From Catenovulum sediminis (lineage in GTDB: Bacteria > Pseudomonadota > Gammaproteobacteria > Enterobacterales > Alteromonadaceae): a DNA stretch of 64,000 nt. Below are positions 35,922 to 44,606 of this stretch, piece by piece; positions within the stretch are counted from its first letter, which is position 1, and each line of letters begins with the position of its first letter. The notes under the pieces were generated by a model. It was given only the letters and a program-made list of their open reading frames with translations, made no database searches and was not told the origin of the DNA. A program made the translations under genes and the position numbers. The stretch covers positions 496,001 through 560,000 of the forward strand of contig NZ_CP041660.1 in assembly GCF_007289895.1 (NCBI RefSeq), read 5' to 3'.

Positions 35922-37145
35922 TTAAAGCGCCCTAACAGCCTCGTCCAAAACAGTATCGATACCTAAGGCAAGATCATCAGGTTTAGTTTGAACAGCAATA
36001 TCCGGTTTCAATCCCTGCCCTTCAAATACGCTCATATCCGGAAACATTGGCATTTGTACTGGAACTCTAACAACAAAGCCATCTCCAAGCTCTTTAATTA
36101 AAGGTTGCCCAGTACTACCATGCGTCGTGGTTCCTATCAGGCGTGCACGCCCTGAATACTGAAGAGCATAGGCAAAATCTTCAGCGGCAGAGTAAGTATT
36201 TTGATTAACCACACATAAAATTTTTCGACTAAACTGCTGATAGTTAAACTTAACTACATCTTGTCCCTTTACCAACATCAATGGCTGTTCTCCCAAAGAA
36301 GCAGAAGCCGCTCCGATAAGTTCTGCAGGTACCGGTATATTCCTTTTTATAAAAGAAGATTGACAAGTCGTATAAGCTTCCAATGCACTGATTCCGGTAT
36401 TCGTTGAGTAAGACAAAGTTGGAAACCTATCGGATTCGAGCAGGCATTGGATTAATTTAAAAGGGGTCACACCGCCTACATTGTTACGAATATCAATAAT
36501 TAAGTTTTTATCACTTGATTTTATAGCCTGTACTAACTCGTCTTCACATTTACCTCCCAAAAAACGACTAATCTTATAATAATCATAAAGCGGGTTTGTA
36601 TTCTGTGAAGAGATTGCTTTTGCCGTACAATTTAAATTAATCGGCTTAACATGATATTTTTTGCCTTTAGGTCCGATAAACTCAATAGATTGGATCGCTT
36701 TGAACATGCCTCCAGAAAAAAACAGGATATTTAATAAATTTAAAGGATTGCTCGAAGAAACATACCTTGCTTGCATTGCCAACCAACGCTCTGCAGGTAT
36801 CCCATCAATAGAACTTAACACATCCCCTAACTGCACATCTTGGCGAAACGATTCAGTAACACGCCACGCGCCCAGAAAATCGCATATCACCCCTAAACTT
36901 TGCATCCGTTGTTCATAGACATCGATAAACTCTATGTGGCTGCGCTGTAAAGCTGATAGCACTTTTCTAACAGCCAACGTGAACTGCACTCTACTGAGAT
37001 TCTTATGCGTTACCATAAAACTCAGGCGACTCATTTTGTCTAAATAGACTTGATGATGGGCGTCACCTAAAAACTGAAAGTGTTTTTCTAAACATGCGTG
37101 AAGTTGACATAAAATAAACGCGTAATTTCGGTTGGAATAATTCAT
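35922..37145 (-). CDS. S41-family peptidase in a RiPP-like cassette
   Basis: 407 residues, with no signal peptide and no transmembrane segment, so it appears cytoplasmic. The C-terminal half matches the S41 core of the tricorn/IRBP-like branch: NLIIDIRNNVGGVTPFKLIQ, CVVNQNTYSAAEDFAYAL with the likely nucleophile Ser near residue 318, and ARLIGTTTHGSTGQ. The N-terminal part has a short PDZ-like stretch (QLGDVLSSIDGIPAERWL). Its ATG overlaps the stop of the radical SAM gene in ATGA, showing translational coupling. With the precursor gene upstream, the likely job is leader removal or processing of the modified peptide. That role is inference; S41 enzymes are unusual for it. Confidence 0.75.
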   Translation of the reverse strand: MNYSNRNYAFILCQLHACLEKHFQFLGDAHHQVYLDKMSRLSFMVTHKNLSRVQFTLAVRKVLSALQRSHIEFIDVYEQRMQSLGVICDFLGAWRVTESFRQDVQLGDVLSSIDGIPAERWLAMQARYVSSSNPLNLLNILFFSGGMFKAIQSIEFIGPKGKKYHVKPINLNCTAKAISSQNTNPLYDYYKISRFLGGKCEDELVQAIKSSDKNLIIDIRNNVGGVTPFKLIQCLLESDRFPTLSYSTNTGISALEAYTTCQSSFIKRNIPVPAELIGAASASLGEQPLMLVKGQDVVKFNYQQFSRKILCVVNQNTYSAAEDFAYALQYSGRARLIGTTTHGSTGQPLIKELGDGFVVRVPVQMPMFPDMSVFEGQGLKPDIAVQTKPDDLALGIDTVLDEAVRAL

Positions 37146-38140
37146 AACTCAACAATTTCTATACTATTAACACCTTGGTTTTTTGGAAAATTATTTGCAG
37201 GACAAGATAAAACGGTTAGGTCACCATCACTGTATCCTCGCATCCATTTTTTGAGTTTATTTGTATCTAGTTCCATTGTTCCGTCCGTATTTAATTGGCC
37301 AACTGTGTTATTTGGGTCTTCAAGTTTTACTGTACATTTTTGAATTCGCCCATCAGCTCTGACCGCAAAAGAATTTACCCTAGAGGCATAACAAAGTTTC
37401 AGTCTGTCTTTTGAGGCTTTCTGAGTAGATGCCAATATATCGTTTAACTCCCCCATTTTTGACTTTCGAGAGTTTTTATTAAGCACTGGAATATGTTTAT
37501 TACTCCCTCCTAAATTTTCAATTGGTTTTATGAAAACATTAAATCTAGTATCATTGCCAAATTGCTCTTTGATTTCTAAAAGAAGCTGCTTGACTGAGTT
37601 GAAATTGTTAGAAGTTACATGTACCCGTAAGACGATGTTAAACTGCAAATAAGATGCCTGCAAATCAATAAGATTACTCCAGATTTTTGAGAAAGTACCA
37701 TTTCCAGAAGCTGTTACTCTTGTAGAATCATGAGCTTCTCGGGTACCATCCAAAGATATTTGATATTCAGTTATTCCTAGATCAACCAACTCGTTCATCA
37801 ACTCGGGAGTCAATTTATAGCCATTAGTTGTCATACTTCCCACTAATTTCACATTATGCAATTTACACATCTTGCTTGCATGGCCACTAATATTGCTTAT
37901 CACATCAATCGCAAGCGTAGGTTCACCGCCAAAAAAAGACAAAGATAACGTCGTTAAACGGGGGATGTTATTGCTTAAAAGTGTTTTTATACTGCTTTGG
38001 AGTTCAAAAGGCATTTTCCCCAAATCAAAACTTTCATAGCAATATATACATCTAAAGTTACACTTTTCGGTTGGATATATAATAAGCTCAAAATACTGCT
38101 CAGAAAGACTAGCTAATAATTTTCTAGTTTTATGTTCCAC
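37142..38140 (-). CDS. Radical SAM peptide-modifying enzyme
   Basis: About 332 residues. The radical SAM cluster motif is CNFRCIYCYE (Cys27, Cys31, Cys34; CxxxCxxC), followed by SFFGGEPTLAIDV, MTTNGYKL and YQISLDGTREAHD, the pattern of SPASM/twitch-type peptide maturases and sulphatase maturases. Three further cysteines lie in the C-terminal third (KLCYASR, IQKCTVKL, VLSCPANN), enough for a reduced auxiliary cluster but short of a full SPASM set. A GTG at 38140 is chosen because TGAGG lies 5 bp upstream; the GTG at 38146 is an alternative. It sits between a GG-leader precursor and the S41 gene, so it probably modifies the core peptide. Confidence 0.82.
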   Translation of the reverse strand: MEHKTRKLLASLSEQYFELIIYPTEKCNFRCIYCYESFDLGKMPFELQSSIKTLLSNNIPRLTTLSLSFFGGEPTLAIDVISNISGHASKMCKLHNVKLVGSMTTNGYKLTPELMNELVDLGITEYQISLDGTREAHDSTRVTASGNGTFSKIWSNLIDLQASYLQFNIVLRVHVTSNNFNSVKQLLLEIKEQFGNDTRFNVFIKPIENLGGSNKHIPVLNKNSRKSKMGELNDILASTQKASKDRLKLCYASRVNSFAVRADGRIQKCTVKLEDPNNTVGQLNTDGTMELDTNKLKKWMRGYSDGDLTVLSCPANNFPKNQGVNSIEIVEL

Positions 38141-38181
38141 AATCACCTCAATTATAGTATTAATTCAATGACCACCTGACT

Positions 38182-38197
38182 CAACAGCGACCTGTTG
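38182..38197 (-). other. Hairpin before the radical SAM gene
   Basis: CAACAG and CTGTTG around a 4-base loop, in the leader of the maturase gene and downstream of the larger hairpin at 38243-38270. No T-run follows. A role in limiting translation or stabilising the mRNA is possible. Confidence 0.35.
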
Positions 38198-38242
38198 CTT
38201 TGCAATAAGTTTTAATTTATGGTCAAAATATATCTTTTTGAA

Positions 38243-38270
38243 CAAGAGGCTAACCGCAGGTCGCCTCTTG
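38243..38270 (-). terminator. Attenuator-like hairpin between precursor and maturase genes
   Basis: Perfect 8-bp stem CAAGAGGC (38243-38250) and GCCTCTTG (38263-38270) with a 12-base loop, 10 bp after the precursor stop. No strong T-run follows in the direction of transcription, so it more likely reduces read-through or protects the precursor mRNA. This is the common arrangement where a precursor is made in excess over its modifying enzyme. Confidence 0.5.
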
Positions 38271-38280
38271 CCTAGCAAGA

Positions 38281-38481
38281 TTATGAATAGTTTGTATCTG
38301 GTCTAATGGGACAGTAGTAATTAGTTGGCCCTGTAGTACATTCATTATTGACTCCACCGCTAATTACCTCAATCTCGTCATCCGTTAGTTGACGAATAGG
38401 GTCATTAATACCTATTTCACGAATTCCCGTTTTCCCAATCTCAATATCGTCTAAGTTCAATATCTGACCAAGTTTAGCCAT
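38281..38481 (-). CDS. Putative RiPP precursor peptide with GG leader
   Basis: 66 residues. Residues 1-43 look like a leader: a charged N-terminus, then LTDDEIEVISGG (32-43), the double-glycine motif of Nif11/bacteriocin-type leaders. The 23-residue core begins VNNECTT and has two cysteines (C48, C57) and two TNY motifs (53-55 and 63-65) separated by a Pro/Arg-rich stretch. AATGAGGG precedes the ATG. The radical SAM and S41 genes follow in the same direction. I do not recognise the core family. GG leaders are usually cut by C39 ABC exporters, and none is encoded nearby. Confidence 0.75.
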   Translation of the reverse strand: MAKLGQILNLDDIEIGKTGIREIGINDPIRQLTDDEIEVISGGVNNECTTGPTNYYCPIRPDTNYS

Positions 38482-38800
38482 ACAAATACCCTCATTAGTT
38501 GTGAATTGTTATAATTACCTAGGCAGCTACGTACACAAATTAACGGTAAAAAATTAACAATTCGTAAGATTATAATTCACCACCCAATGTGGCTTTGCGA
38601 TTGTTAGCTATTTGAGATCAAATAGCTACTGTACCTAGGGACAGTTTGCACTGTTTAATAACAAATACAGTTAAGCCTACTTTGTTTATATGGGTGACAA
38701 TAAAGGCATAATCATTGAATAAGACAGAGAAAATAGTTATAAACTAACATCAACTTAAACCTACAGCGCTCATCCGCCAATCAGGGATGCAAAAGGCAAG
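38482..38800. other. Divergent intergenic region between precursor and recQ, with perfect inverted repeat
   Basis: About 320 bp and AT-rich. A perfect inverted repeat TAGCTATTTG-agat-CAAATAGCTA lies at 38605-38628, about 125 bp upstream of the precursor start and 170 bp upstream of recQ. It may be an operator or a hairpin. The hexamer CCTAGG occurs at both ends of the interval (around 38518 and 38634). No copies of the LacI or GntR motifs were seen. Confidence 0.4.
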
Positions 38801-41244: not shown

Positions 41245-41304
41245 ATGAAGTTAGACGAAATACAACATTTATCTGCCTGCAGTCGTTGGCAAATCTTAAA
41301 ATAA
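41245..41304 (+). other. Possible 19-codon leader ORF
   Basis: An ATG just after AAAGGAGG opens a 19-codon frame ending 12 bp before the GH32 start. The spacing from the ribosome site is only about 2 bp, which is short. It could be a translated leader or chance. Confidence 0.2.
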
Positions 41305-41315
41305 GAGAGTCTGAT

Positions 41316-44300
41316 ATGAATTTAGTAATACACACAAAAATTATGACTAGAACAGGACTTCTATCGCTCGCTTTAGCTGGGATAAACTCAGCACTAGCAG
41401 CACCACCACTTACACAACAACCAGAGACAGAGGGCTTTTCTCTGTTTCATAATATCAATATGCCAACACAAAATATTGCCGGATTTGAGTTTTGTTGCGG
41501 CCAATACAATACCTACCAAGAACATACATTTACAAACGCATCTGACGCATTTATATATTTAGATGGCGGCCATTGGAAAGACAGTTTTGCAGGTGTTATA
41601 GGCGATCGTCTATTCGCAAGCTTTGGTTCGGGATATTTTTCAGAAGGCGGAAATAGCAGCTACTTTGGTTATGATGCAATCGGTAGTATCGATAGCCCAA
41701 CATTCACTATCATTAATGATTACATCAATTTTAAAATTGGCGGTGGCAATAACAATTACACAACCGCTAACGCGACAGCCGCTGTATTGCTGGTAAACGG
41801 ACAAGTTGTGCGCCATGCAACCGGGCAAAACCGTGACAATGCAATTGCATGGCACACTTGGGATGTTAGCGACCTACAAGGCCAAACAGCGTCAATACGT
41901 TTAATTGACAATCATTCTGATAATGGCGTCGACAACGCGCTTCCCTATTTACTCGCGGATGAATTTCGGGCAGCCAATCTAGCGGCAGTATTACCTACAA
42001 CACAAGATTACGTGCAACCTGAACTCGTGGGCGAAGCTTTGTTTGTTAATGCCAATAATACAACACAAGATATTGCCGGATTTGAGTTTTGCTGTGCAGG
42101 TTATGATAGTTTTTCCCAACACAATTTTGACAACGTTGTAAGCGATCTAACTAGCTTAGATGGTGGTCAATGGGCGGCTAACTACAACGGCGCAATTGGT
42201 GACAGGGTATTTTCCAGTGCAGGTGATGGGTATCAAGATATCTACGATACCAGTATTGAGCCTATAGGCGAGCAAGCCACTGGTAGCCTAGATTCACCAG
42301 AATTTGTAATTAACAAACCCTACATTAACTTTTTATTAGGGGGCGGCAGCAACCTATTTGATGCGGCCAATCCAACCTCTGCTCTGTTGATTATAAATAA
42401 TCAAGTCGTCCGCCAGGCCAGTGGCGACAACTCAACAGACTTAGTGTGGCATAGCTGGGATGTTGACGAATTTATCGGTCAAACAGCACGCGTTCGTTTA
42501 TTAGACTACCACCCTGCTGATAACTCAGATGCAAGCATTCCATACTTACTTGCCGATCAATTTCGCGCAGCAGATATTCCTGCCACACAAAATATATCAG
42601 GCGAAATAGATTATTCGGCCGCACCAATCGCAAGCTCTCCAGCAAGTGAAGGACAAGCGGCCTTTAGCTCAAGTAAATTTCCAACGACTCATATTGCAGG
42701 TTTTGAGAACTGCTGTTTCAACTATGACACTTACCATGCTTTTAACTTTTTAGCCTATGGTGATTTTGTTAGGTTTAACGGCGGCCAGTGGGCAACCGGC
42801 ATCGCTAACAATGTGGATGATCGCATTTTTGCCAGTTATGGCCAAGGTTATGCAAACAACGCCGATACGACAGGCACTTGGTATGGTTGGGAGGCGACTG
42901 GTCGTCTATTATCCCCTAAATTTACCATCGAAAAACCTTACATTAATCTATTAACCGCAGGCGGTACCAATACCTTTGAGTCTGACAATGCAACCGCAGT
43001 TGTTTTGCGCGTAAACGGCAAAGTTGTGCGCCAATCTACGGGTAATGGCTTAGAAACTGAACTTGAATGGGTTTCTTGGGATACAACTTCTTTAATCGGT
43101 CAACAAGCTGTGATTGAAATTATCGACCAACATGACAATACAGTAAGCGATGGTAGTTTACCCTTTATTTTAGTCGATGAAATTCGTCAAGCCGATAAAG
43201 CCGCGGTTGCCCCACTCACCTCATCTATTGTCAGCCAGGTAGACGGTCATAAAGTAGCATTGCAACTGAATATGGGGGATGCGAATCCGTATTATGAAAA
43301 TGGCGAATTTTATATCTACTACTTGCAAAACTCAGCTTACCATTCTTGGTATTTGTCTAAAACAGACGATTTATTAACAGGCACTTTCTCCGAAGAAATT
43401 ATCCCAGCGTCTGGCGACAGTACTGCACAAGATAGATGGATTGGCTCTGGTAGTGTAATGAAAGACCAAAACGGTCAATATCACTTATTTTATACCGGCC
43501 ACAATAAAGACCACTATCCGGTTGAGGCTGTGATGCATGCCGTTGCAACTGACAATACCTTGAAAAATTGGCAAACCATTGATGAACACACATTCACAGG
43601 TTCAAATGGCTATAGCGACTATGATTTCCGCGACCCATTTGTATTTTGGAATGAAGACGAGCAACGTTATTGGATGCTGATTACCTCTCGTTACAATAAT
43701 CAAGCAGCTATTGGTTTATATACTTCAACCGACTTAGCCAGTTGGACCGCTCAACCACCACTGTATGCTGAAACTTCGCCATTAAACTTAGAAGTACCAG
43801 AGTACTTTGAGTTTGCTGATACGCCATTTGTGGTTTATTCCGACCAACGCAATGAGTCGCCAGTAGTTAAATATTTAATTAAGCAAAATAACCAATGGGT
43901 TAAACCAAACTTTGATGCACTAGACGGCCGCTATTTTTATGCCGCGCGTTCAGCTGGGCCTGAAAGTGAGCGTTTATTGTTTGGTTGGGTACCACACACA
44001 GACGGCCGAAACGATGGTGCAGCGCCAAGCTGGGGTGGCGATTTATTAGTGCATCAGTTGCATAAACACCCAAGTGGTGAACTTGCTGTAAAAATGCCAG
44101 AAAAACTAATTAACCAGTTAGATAGCAGCATGCCACTCAGTTTAAGCTGGACTCAAGGTAACGCGCAATTGCAAAACAATACCGCAACCTTAACTGCAAA
44201 TAGCGCACTAACCCTAGCGGCAAGTGAGCAACCTAACCGTATCCAGTTTAACCTTGCCAGCACCTCAGCTGATGCAGTTTCAGGCATTCAATTTAGATTA

Positions 44301-44606
44301 CCTGTCAGTGGACAAGCGGACAAACTTGCATACCTAAAACTTGACCCAACTAGCAGTACAGCCAAGTTTTATTTTGCGGGCGATGAACAAAACACGGCCA
44401 ACCCGAGCGTCACTATCCCTTTCAACATGCAGTCTGGTGTACATGTTGATTTATGGCTCAATCCACAATCGGGTGTGGGTGCTATCTACTTAAACCACTA
44501 TCGGGCGCTCAGTTTTCGCCTATATGATTTAGCCCAATATCAAATTGGTCTATTTAGCGAAAACCGTGATGTCACGGCTAGCGGTTTTACTCGCTTTAAC
44601 GATTAA
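41316..44606 (+). CDS. Secreted GH32 fructan hydrolase with three N-terminal CC-motif modules
   Basis: 1096 residues; start at the ATG at 41316 (AAGAGAG upstream), signal peptide ending near NSALA. Three beta-rich modules of about 180-200 residues follow, with landmarks FEFCC, FEFCC and FENCC near residues 54, 254 and 460. The GH32 propeller starts near 650 with GDANPYYENG (nucleophile Asp), then FRDP near 770 and EVPEYFE near 825 (acid/base Glu). The C-terminal beta-sandwich closes with GVGAIYLNHYRALSFRLY. It should cut fructans such as inulin or levan outside the cell. The modules are probably carbohydrate-binding (inference). A 384-bp block is identical to the next gene, and a perfect operator lies inside the coding region at 42130. 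Confidence 0.88.
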   Translation: MNLVIHTKIMTRTGLLSLALAGINSALAAPPLTQQPETEGFSLFHNINMPTQNIAGFEFCCGQYNTYQEHTFTNASDAFIYLDGGHWKDSFAGVIGDRLFASFGSGYFSEGGNSSYFGYDAIGSIDSPTFTIINDYINFKIGGGNNNYTTANATAAVLLVNGQVVRHATGQNRDNAIAWHTWDVSDLQGQTASIRLIDNHSDNGVDNALPYLLADEFRAANLAAVLPTTQDYVQPELVGEALFVNANNTTQDIAGFEFCCAGYDSFSQHNFDNVVSDLTSLDGGQWAANYNGAIGDRVFSSAGDGYQDIYDTSIEPIGEQATGSLDSPEFVINKPYINFLLGGGSNLFDAANPTSALLIINNQVVRQASGDNSTDLVWHSWDVDEFIGQTARVRLLDYHPADNSDASIPYLLADQFRAADIPATQNISGEIDYSAAPIASSPASEGQAAFSSSKFPTTHIAGFENCCFNYDTYHAFNFLAYGDFVRFNGGQWATGIANNVDDRIFASYGQGYANNADTTGTWYGWEATGRLLSPKFTIEKPYINLLTAGGTNTFESDNATAVVLRVNGKVVRQSTGNGLETELEWVSWDTTSLIGQQAVIEIIDQHDNTVSDGSLPFILVDEIRQADKAAVAPLTSSIVSQVDGHKVALQLNMGDANPYYENGEFYIYYLQNSAYHSWYLSKTDDLLTGTFSEEIIPASGDSTAQDRWIGSGSVMKDQNGQYHLFYTGHNKDHYPVEAVMHAVATDNTLKNWQTIDEHTFTGSNGYSDYDFRDPFVFWNEDEQRYWMLITSRYNNQAAIGLYTSTDLASWTAQPPLYAETSPLNLEVPEYFEFADTPFVVYSDQRNESPVVKYLIKQNNQWVKPNFDALDGRYFYAARSAGPESERLLFGWVPHTDGRNDGAAPSWGGDLLVHQLHKHPSGELAVKMPEKLINQLDSSMPLSLSWTQGNAQLQNNTATLTANSALTLAASEQPNRIQFNLASTSADAVSGIQFRLPVSGQADKLAYLKLDPTSSTAKFYFAGDEQNTANPSVTIPFNMQSGVHVDLWLNPQSGVGAIYLNHYRALSFRLYDLAQYQIGLFSENRDVTASGFTRFND
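42130..42139. promoter_or_regulatory. LacI-type operator inside the first GH32 gene
   Basis: Perfect ACAACGTTGT about 930 bp downstream of the promoter operator at 41202. It encodes part of DNVV, so it may be coincidence, or an auxiliary operator for looping as in the lac system. Confidence 0.35.
42818..43201 (+). repeat. 384-bp identical block, copy 1
   Basis: Identical by eye to 46156-46539 in the next GH32 gene. It covers the third module. Flanking sequence is clearly more diverged. Confidence 0.9.

Follow-up and report, generated by a model that had tools for sequence, protein, structure and literature searches.

The genome of Catenovulum sediminis (Alteromonadaceae) carries a compact three-gene cassette on the minus strand of a 64,000-nucleotide stretch (contig NZ_CP041660.1, positions 496,001 to 560,000), hereafter called the window, to which all unlabelled coordinates refer. 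The first gene (38281..38481) encodes a putative precursor peptide of 66 amino acids (aa) from an ATG, with a 43-residue leader ending in a double glycine (GG) and a 23-residue core. It is followed by a gene for a radical SAM maturase (37142..38146; 334 aa from a GTG), which has a CxxxCxxC motif and three C-terminal cysteines, and by a gene for an S41-family peptidase (35922..37145; 407 aa). The stop of the radical SAM gene and the start of the S41 gene share the sequence ATGA at 37142-37145, an overlap from which we infer translational coupling. All three open reading frames (ORFs) of a preliminary description of this DNA, which had called them co-directional and given no strand, were recovered, together with the GG leader and its two-cysteine core, the CxxxCxxC motif with a reduced C-terminal cysteine set and the ATGA overlap. 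A GAGGG at 38489-38493 lies seven bases 5' of the precursor ATG. The radical SAM gene has a second in-frame GTG at 38140, which is at a better distance from a GAGG (38146-38149) than the first and is possibly the true start.

The leader of the precursor ends in LTDDEIEVISGG and the core reads VNNECTTGPTNYYCPIRPDTNYS. Both core cysteines are preceded by asparagine at position -3, giving the NxxC motifs Asn45-Cys48 (NNEC) and Asn54-Cys57 (NYYC), an arrangement with a permutation chance of 0.029. Searches against Pfam and NCBIfam gave no family match for the peptide up to E = 1, and by eye its leader falls outside the strict motif that we used to pick peptides beside related enzymes. Both results would suit the alternative that the 66-aa ORF is no substrate and that the two enzymes act on some other protein. 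Against it stand the position of the ORF just upstream on the same strand, its GG leader end, its two NxxC motifs and a profile of the relatives' leaders, made with the focal sequence left out, which ranked it first among 444 window ORFs of 30-120 aa (8.8 bits, E 0.038; runner-up 6.6 bits); we regard the alternative as very improbable. The leader alone scored 7.0 bits and was matched or beaten by 15 of 5000 shuffles with the GG fixed, the top shuffle reaching 11.7 bits. Taken together, there is moderate support for the predicted precursor being more than a chance ORF.

The maturase matches Pfam Radical_SAM with 53.7 bits (cut-off 29.5). Its leading NCBIfam matches are all radical SAM peptide maturases and all lie far under their cut-offs: TIGR04463 comes first with 157.2 bits against 525, accompanied by Clo7bot, CefB, the geopeptide maturase model (114.5 against 400) and PapB (NF047865; 112 against 340), and CcpM reaches 86.1 against 500. 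Three enzymes were scanned (the focal one and those of loci L030 and L082; L-numbers are the locus labels of this analysis), and none passed an NCBIfam cut-off among the matches listed. A viperin-like, anti-phage identity was considered and rejected, as the PADLOC model pVip scored 53.4 bits, below the maturase matches.

Homologues of the enzyme occur in 10 of 295 genomes of the host family at E ≤ 1e-30, the own genome counted, and in none of the seven other genomes of the genus in the same search. A scan of named genomes with the single sequence confirmed none of 50 stretches; a scan with a nine-member alignment confirmed 294 of 327 candidate stretches as relatives, the best 80 of which were kept as named loci. 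The closest relatives belong to Pseudomonas crudilactis (L030, 51% identity) and Chromobacterium alticapitis (47%), and plasmid records yielded 18 distant-to-moderate matches with up to 42% identity. In a tree of 91 rows, which spans Pseudomonadota, Actinomycetota, Cyanobacteriota, Bacillota, Myxococcota, Planctomycetota, Bacteroidota, Acidobacteriota and others, the focal enzyme clusters with those of Pseudomonas crudilactis, Trinickia and Duganella (support 98/94), its position inside this group being weak (80/16). Judged by these searches, it belongs to a maturase family of wide distribution. A partial literature search, mostly outside subscription journals, found no report of this family. 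Over 250 clusters of SPASM-group enzymes have been described (PMC9062424), and the focal family may be among them.

The AlphaFold model of the maturase is good (mean predicted local distance difference test score, pLDDT, 89.4). Its top match among solved structures is 5why/5wgg (E 3e-15, 21-22% identity), and 5wgg is also the top profile match (E 9.1e-24); we take this protein to be CteB. Across 41 aligned members of the family, cysteine is invariant only at the three positions of CxxxCxxC and at the C-terminal C252, C271 and C315. The pattern CX9-15GX4C, with which the SPASM motif begins, is present in 41/41 members, and CX2CX5CX3C in 0/41. A SPASM domain is described as having seven or eight C-terminal cysteines and two auxiliary clusters, a twitch domain as having three or four and one cluster (PMC10452713). 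With three conserved C-terminal cysteines, the focal family falls short of the former count and within the latter as far as the cysteine pattern goes, and we infer a twitch-like, reduced set for one predicted auxiliary cluster. The auxiliary cluster AuxI of CteB has three cysteine ligands, and in ranthipeptide maturases the open site of this cluster can contribute to binding of the substrate (PMC10452713); the focal family appears to have retained an AuxI-like cluster alone. CteB itself makes a thioether to a carbon other than the alpha carbon (PMC11002830).

What do such enzymes act on? Short ORFs with a leader motif, some of them GG-leadered, were found at 56 of 95 radical SAM loci (four of the 95 being repeat fetches of the same contig), which supports the earlier view of the cassette as one for a ribosomally synthesised and post-translationally modified peptide (RiPP). 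The motif used for picking these 60 different ORFs takes no account of the core; nevertheless 59 of them carry core cysteines, 162 in total. With the focal peptide excluded from the counts, asparagine stands at -3 of 67 of the 162 cysteines (17.2 expected) and at -4 of 44 (16.9 expected), counts that none of 2000 shuffles reached, and asparagine at -1, -2, -5, -6 and -7 is close to expectation. NxxC is present in 43 of the 59 cores. The enrichment persisted when one core was kept per 60%-identity cluster of the enzymes (28 cores; 38/88 against 9.3 at -3 and 24/88 against 8.9 at -4; 0/2000 shuffles).

This pattern also bears on the possibility that the enzyme makes a crosslink of another kind, between two carbons or otherwise (a cyclophane via a tyrosine near the asparagine would be an example), leaving the cysteines free or in a disulfide. 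The focal core does contain NYY and TNYS, and triceptides use the asparagine C-beta as acceptor (PMC11002830). In the relatives' cores, however, asparagine at -3 or -4 of cysteine gives the strongest signal of all positions at which N, G, S, T, D, P, K and E were counted, a residue set without the aromatic ones, and the top fold match of the enzyme forms thioethers; we thus consider such a crosslink quite unlikely.

Several relatives' loci are noteworthy in their own right. Cores with four to six cysteines and repeated Asn-Cys motifs, adjoined by the same kind of maturase, occur at L074, L082, L107, L046 and L101 and are candidates for multi-ring peptides. In Pseudomonas crudilactis, the peptide motifs are VNAKC, VNGGC and VNSSC, and the locus encodes an additional JmjC-domain protein (PF08007; L030:7022-8167), which makes an additional hydroxylation of its peptide possible. 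Pseudoalteromonas-type loci (L011:11371-12656, L013:10244-11550 and L015:7898-9210) hold a second peptide of 64-66 aa with a GG-like stretch (ITSLEMLDALVGG and similar), which directly precedes a 362-372 aa protein; the L011 copy of this protein had no Pfam match at E ≤ 0.01. A two-peptide system is possible there.

Which protease would remove the GG leader? As a rule, GG leaders are paired with C39 exporters, as the preliminary description had stated, and this fits many relatives: a C39 exporter domain was found at 28 of the 80 named loci, for which neighbour-gene counts were limited to the retrieved flanks. In the focal genome, by contrast, a canonical C39-type ABC exporter was found neither in the cassette nor elsewhere. 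Two proteins matched PF03412 at E ≤ 0.01, namely an ABC protein, LapB-type by reading, which lies beside a 2602-aa ORF and by eye lacks the cysteine at the usual place, and a C39_2 protein, a lipoprotein by reading. The former pair (L125:5922-15944) is possibly an adhesin export locus. Given that no canonical C39 exporter was found, the S41 protein of the cassette appears to be the best candidate for the leader peptidase. Its membership in the family is clear (Pfam Peptidase_S41, PF03572; 85.7 bits, cut-off 24), and the preliminary description's view that it has no signal peptide agrees with our judgement by eye. S41 genes accompany the maturase family elsewhere too, at three of the 80 named loci at E ≤ 1e-5 (L036, L081 and L084, each of which has a C39 domain as well) and at L016-L019, where S41s of the L081/L084 type stand with C39 exporters by reading; we count this in favour of the scheme set out below. 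At L056, an S41 match reached only 9.8e-5. A neighbouring protein of the Trinickia enzyme was rejected as an S41, as it had no real similarity and no Pfam match.

In light of these findings, we propose that the cassette makes a ranthipeptide with two Asn-Cys bridges, whose GG leader is cut by the S41 peptidase, and we assign this reading a probability of about one half (0.52). A two-cysteine precursor beside a radical SAM enzyme of thioether-forming type (5why/5wgg as top match, with the anaerobic sulfatase-maturating enzyme 4k37 near) is the constellation that defines such a candidate. The radical SAM enzyme would abstract a hydrogen from the asparagine side chain, presumably at C-beta, and link the carbon concerned with the cysteine sulfur three residues later. 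Bridging of Asn45 with Cys48 and of Asn54 with Cys57 would then give two small thioether rings, with the single three-cysteine auxiliary iron-sulfur cluster perhaps holding the substrate thiolate. The S41 peptidase would afterwards cut the leader off at or near the GG, in place of a C39 exporter. As for the chemistry by itself, a two-ring Asn-Cys thioether peptide is the most likely product suggested by these comparisons.

Several observations weigh against this reading, some touching the chemistry and others the protease. The fold margin is small, with 4k37 a close second at E 2.1e-14. Asparagine is enriched at +2 of cysteine too (28 against 16.2 expected), glycine likewise at +1, -1 and -2. 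NxxC is missing from 16 of the 59 relatives' cores, the cores of Duganella and Chromobacterium have NxC, and the Trinickia enzyme, which stands close by in the tree, has no recognised precursor next to it. When clusters were drawn at 50% identity (18 cores, 59 cysteines), positions -3 and -4 tied with 18 each against 5.9 expected. Moreover, an asparagine enrichment in sequences is blind to the acceptor carbon and cannot separate the alpha from the beta position. It would hence also suit an enzyme that forms an alpha-carbon thioether, as in sactipeptides, between cysteine and asparagine or another residue, and the sactisynthase SkfB (6efn) does appear among the structure and profile matches. 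SkfB ranks 17th in the structure ranking, though, whereas the top fold and profile match 5why/5wgg is a non-alpha thioether enzyme (PMC11002830), and NxxcB, the one enzyme acting on an NxxC motif in the literature examined, makes a C-beta bond (PMC13361665). A sactipeptide thus appears unlikely to us.

On the side of the protease, the S41 model is too poor for a judgement of the active site (mean pLDDT 46.2), for which a reading of alignments points to Ser319 as the putative nucleophile, and the cassette contains no exporter gene. Searches with the focal S41 returned its own genome and no other, both among 394 genomes of the order (E ≤ 1e-25) and among 369 genomes of the class (E ≤ 1e-18), two draws that share some genomes. 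It is 24-25% identical to the RiPP-linked S41s of L081 and L084, with which it has the motif GSTGQPL in common, and 19-23% identical to those of L036 and L056; with L016-L019, partial local matches of 27-40% were obtained. By these comparisons, it is a branch apart from the S41s of L036, L056, L081 and L084. No match was confirmed in viral contigs. Seven plasmid records matched at E ≤ 1e-8, the sole one spanning 80% of the query being 27.9% identical, and in the two records inspected, the genes listed within 8 kb include none for a radical SAM enzyme. The preliminary description had suggested looking for the same three-gene order in other genomes; that order, with the focal S41 in it, was seen nowhere else in the searches above and can therefore not be called a conserved class. 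As no close relative of this S41 turned up in other sampled genomes, the three-gene set looks rare, as does the pairing of the maturase with a cytoplasmic S41. Owing to this lack of conservation, we keep the role of the S41 as leader peptidase near even odds.

The best-known role of S41 proteins is that of C-terminal processing proteases. The focal S41 might thus degrade failed, unmodified or mature peptide, as quality control or self-protection, and a general protease might remove the leader. In line with this, the other S41s linked to the maturase coexist with a GG-capable C39 exporter (at 3/3 named loci, and at L016-L019 by reading), and the focal genome holds three S41 genes by Pfam, that of the cassette and two more. 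Since the focal genome differs from those loci in the missing canonical C39 exporter, and since the S41 is the only protease of the cassette, with a gene overlapping that of the maturase, we rate degradation as rather unlikely, albeit as the most probable of the alternatives. The literature search mentioned above found no report of an S41 protein as leader peptidase, and in the text examined of a review on leader proteases (PMC10885120) the whole word 'S41' occurs 0 times.

The preliminary description knew of no well-described class with exactly this gene set. For the exact three genes this still holds within the searches made here, but enzyme and core motif point to thioether ranthipeptides and to NxxC peptides especially. 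In the streptococcal NxxcA, Cys23 is bridged to C-beta of Asn20 by NxxcB (PMC8326336, PMC13361665). Like the focal cassette, this system combines a radical SAM maturase with an asparagine three residues before a core cysteine. In contrast to the focal family, with CX2CX5CX3C in 0/41 members, NxxcB is listed among SPASM-domain enzymes (PMC9012708), and the GG leader and the S41 set the focal cassette further apart. An Rgg/SHP quorum-sensing neighbour was not recognised among the window ORFs between 33 and 42 kb, read by eye. CteB, the maturase of the SCIFF peptide thermocellin, resembles the focal enzyme in fold, profile and AuxI ligands, but has 453 residues in the chain compared to 334; the focal enzyme lacks the second auxiliary cluster motif, and its precursor has no match to the SCIFF type. 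PapB, the freyrasin enzyme, also forms thioethers and is of similar length (profile 330), but links cysteine to aspartate or glutamate, not asparagine (PMC9413430).

The loci L016-L019, L081 and L084, which encode HlyD, a C39 exporter and a longer S41, share with the focal cassette a homologous radical SAM enzyme and a nearby S41, and at L016-L019 and L084 also cysteine-containing peptides. They differ in their S41s, which are 472-502 aa long and by eye carry a putative signal sequence, in the C39 exporter and in their radical SAM enzymes, which form a separate clade (99/99). One member of this clade, L055, has no S41 in the retrieved flank. At L016:9147-14832 and L018:4237-10387, four clustered radical SAM genes stand with HlyD, a C39 exporter, an S41 and a peptide ending TNCCNGCD.

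Between the precursor and radical SAM genes, the transcript contains a predicted hairpin (38232..38281, minus strand). An 83-nucleotide stretch folds at -22.6 kcal/mol (z -3.29), with none of 200 shuffles equally stable, and no terminator-like site was found between the two genes; the hairpin may lower expression of the enzymes relative to the peptide. The GC content of the radical SAM gene (0.349) is below that of the precursor gene (0.378), the S41 gene (0.396) and the window (0.412), an AT-richness that fits acquisition without proving it. The cassette is flanked downstream by a gene for a substrate-binding protein and upstream by a divergent RecQ gene, names that were assigned by reading without a family search; neither looks tied to the cassette. 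RecQ is present in seven of eight genomes of the genus, the own genome counted, in a search for an empty site. Six RecQ flanks from the genus matched neither the focal neighbours nor the cassette, and thus no insertion boundary was found. Further along the window, a 1106-aa ORF (41286-44606) contains, in the N-terminal half, three stretches that resemble one another, each of them built around IAGFE(F/N)CC.

Could the cassette be one member of a much broader group? A tentative extension, to which we give somewhat less than even odds, is a broad class of ranthipeptide maturases that have one three-cysteine cluster, act on asparagine three or four residues upstream of cysteine and occur in many phyla and perhaps in archaea, with a cytoplasmic S41 having taken over leader removal from the C39 exporter in the lineage of Catenovulum sediminis. 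If this is true, S41 would join the protease families that process double-glycine leaders as a new one, and Asn-Cys thioether peptides, named solely from streptococci in the literature examined, would be a widespread type of radical SAM peptide. The compact enzyme with its reduced cluster set would then suit mechanistic work and peptide stapling, and what the auxiliary cluster contributes to thioether formation could be tested with an enzyme that seemingly has only one.

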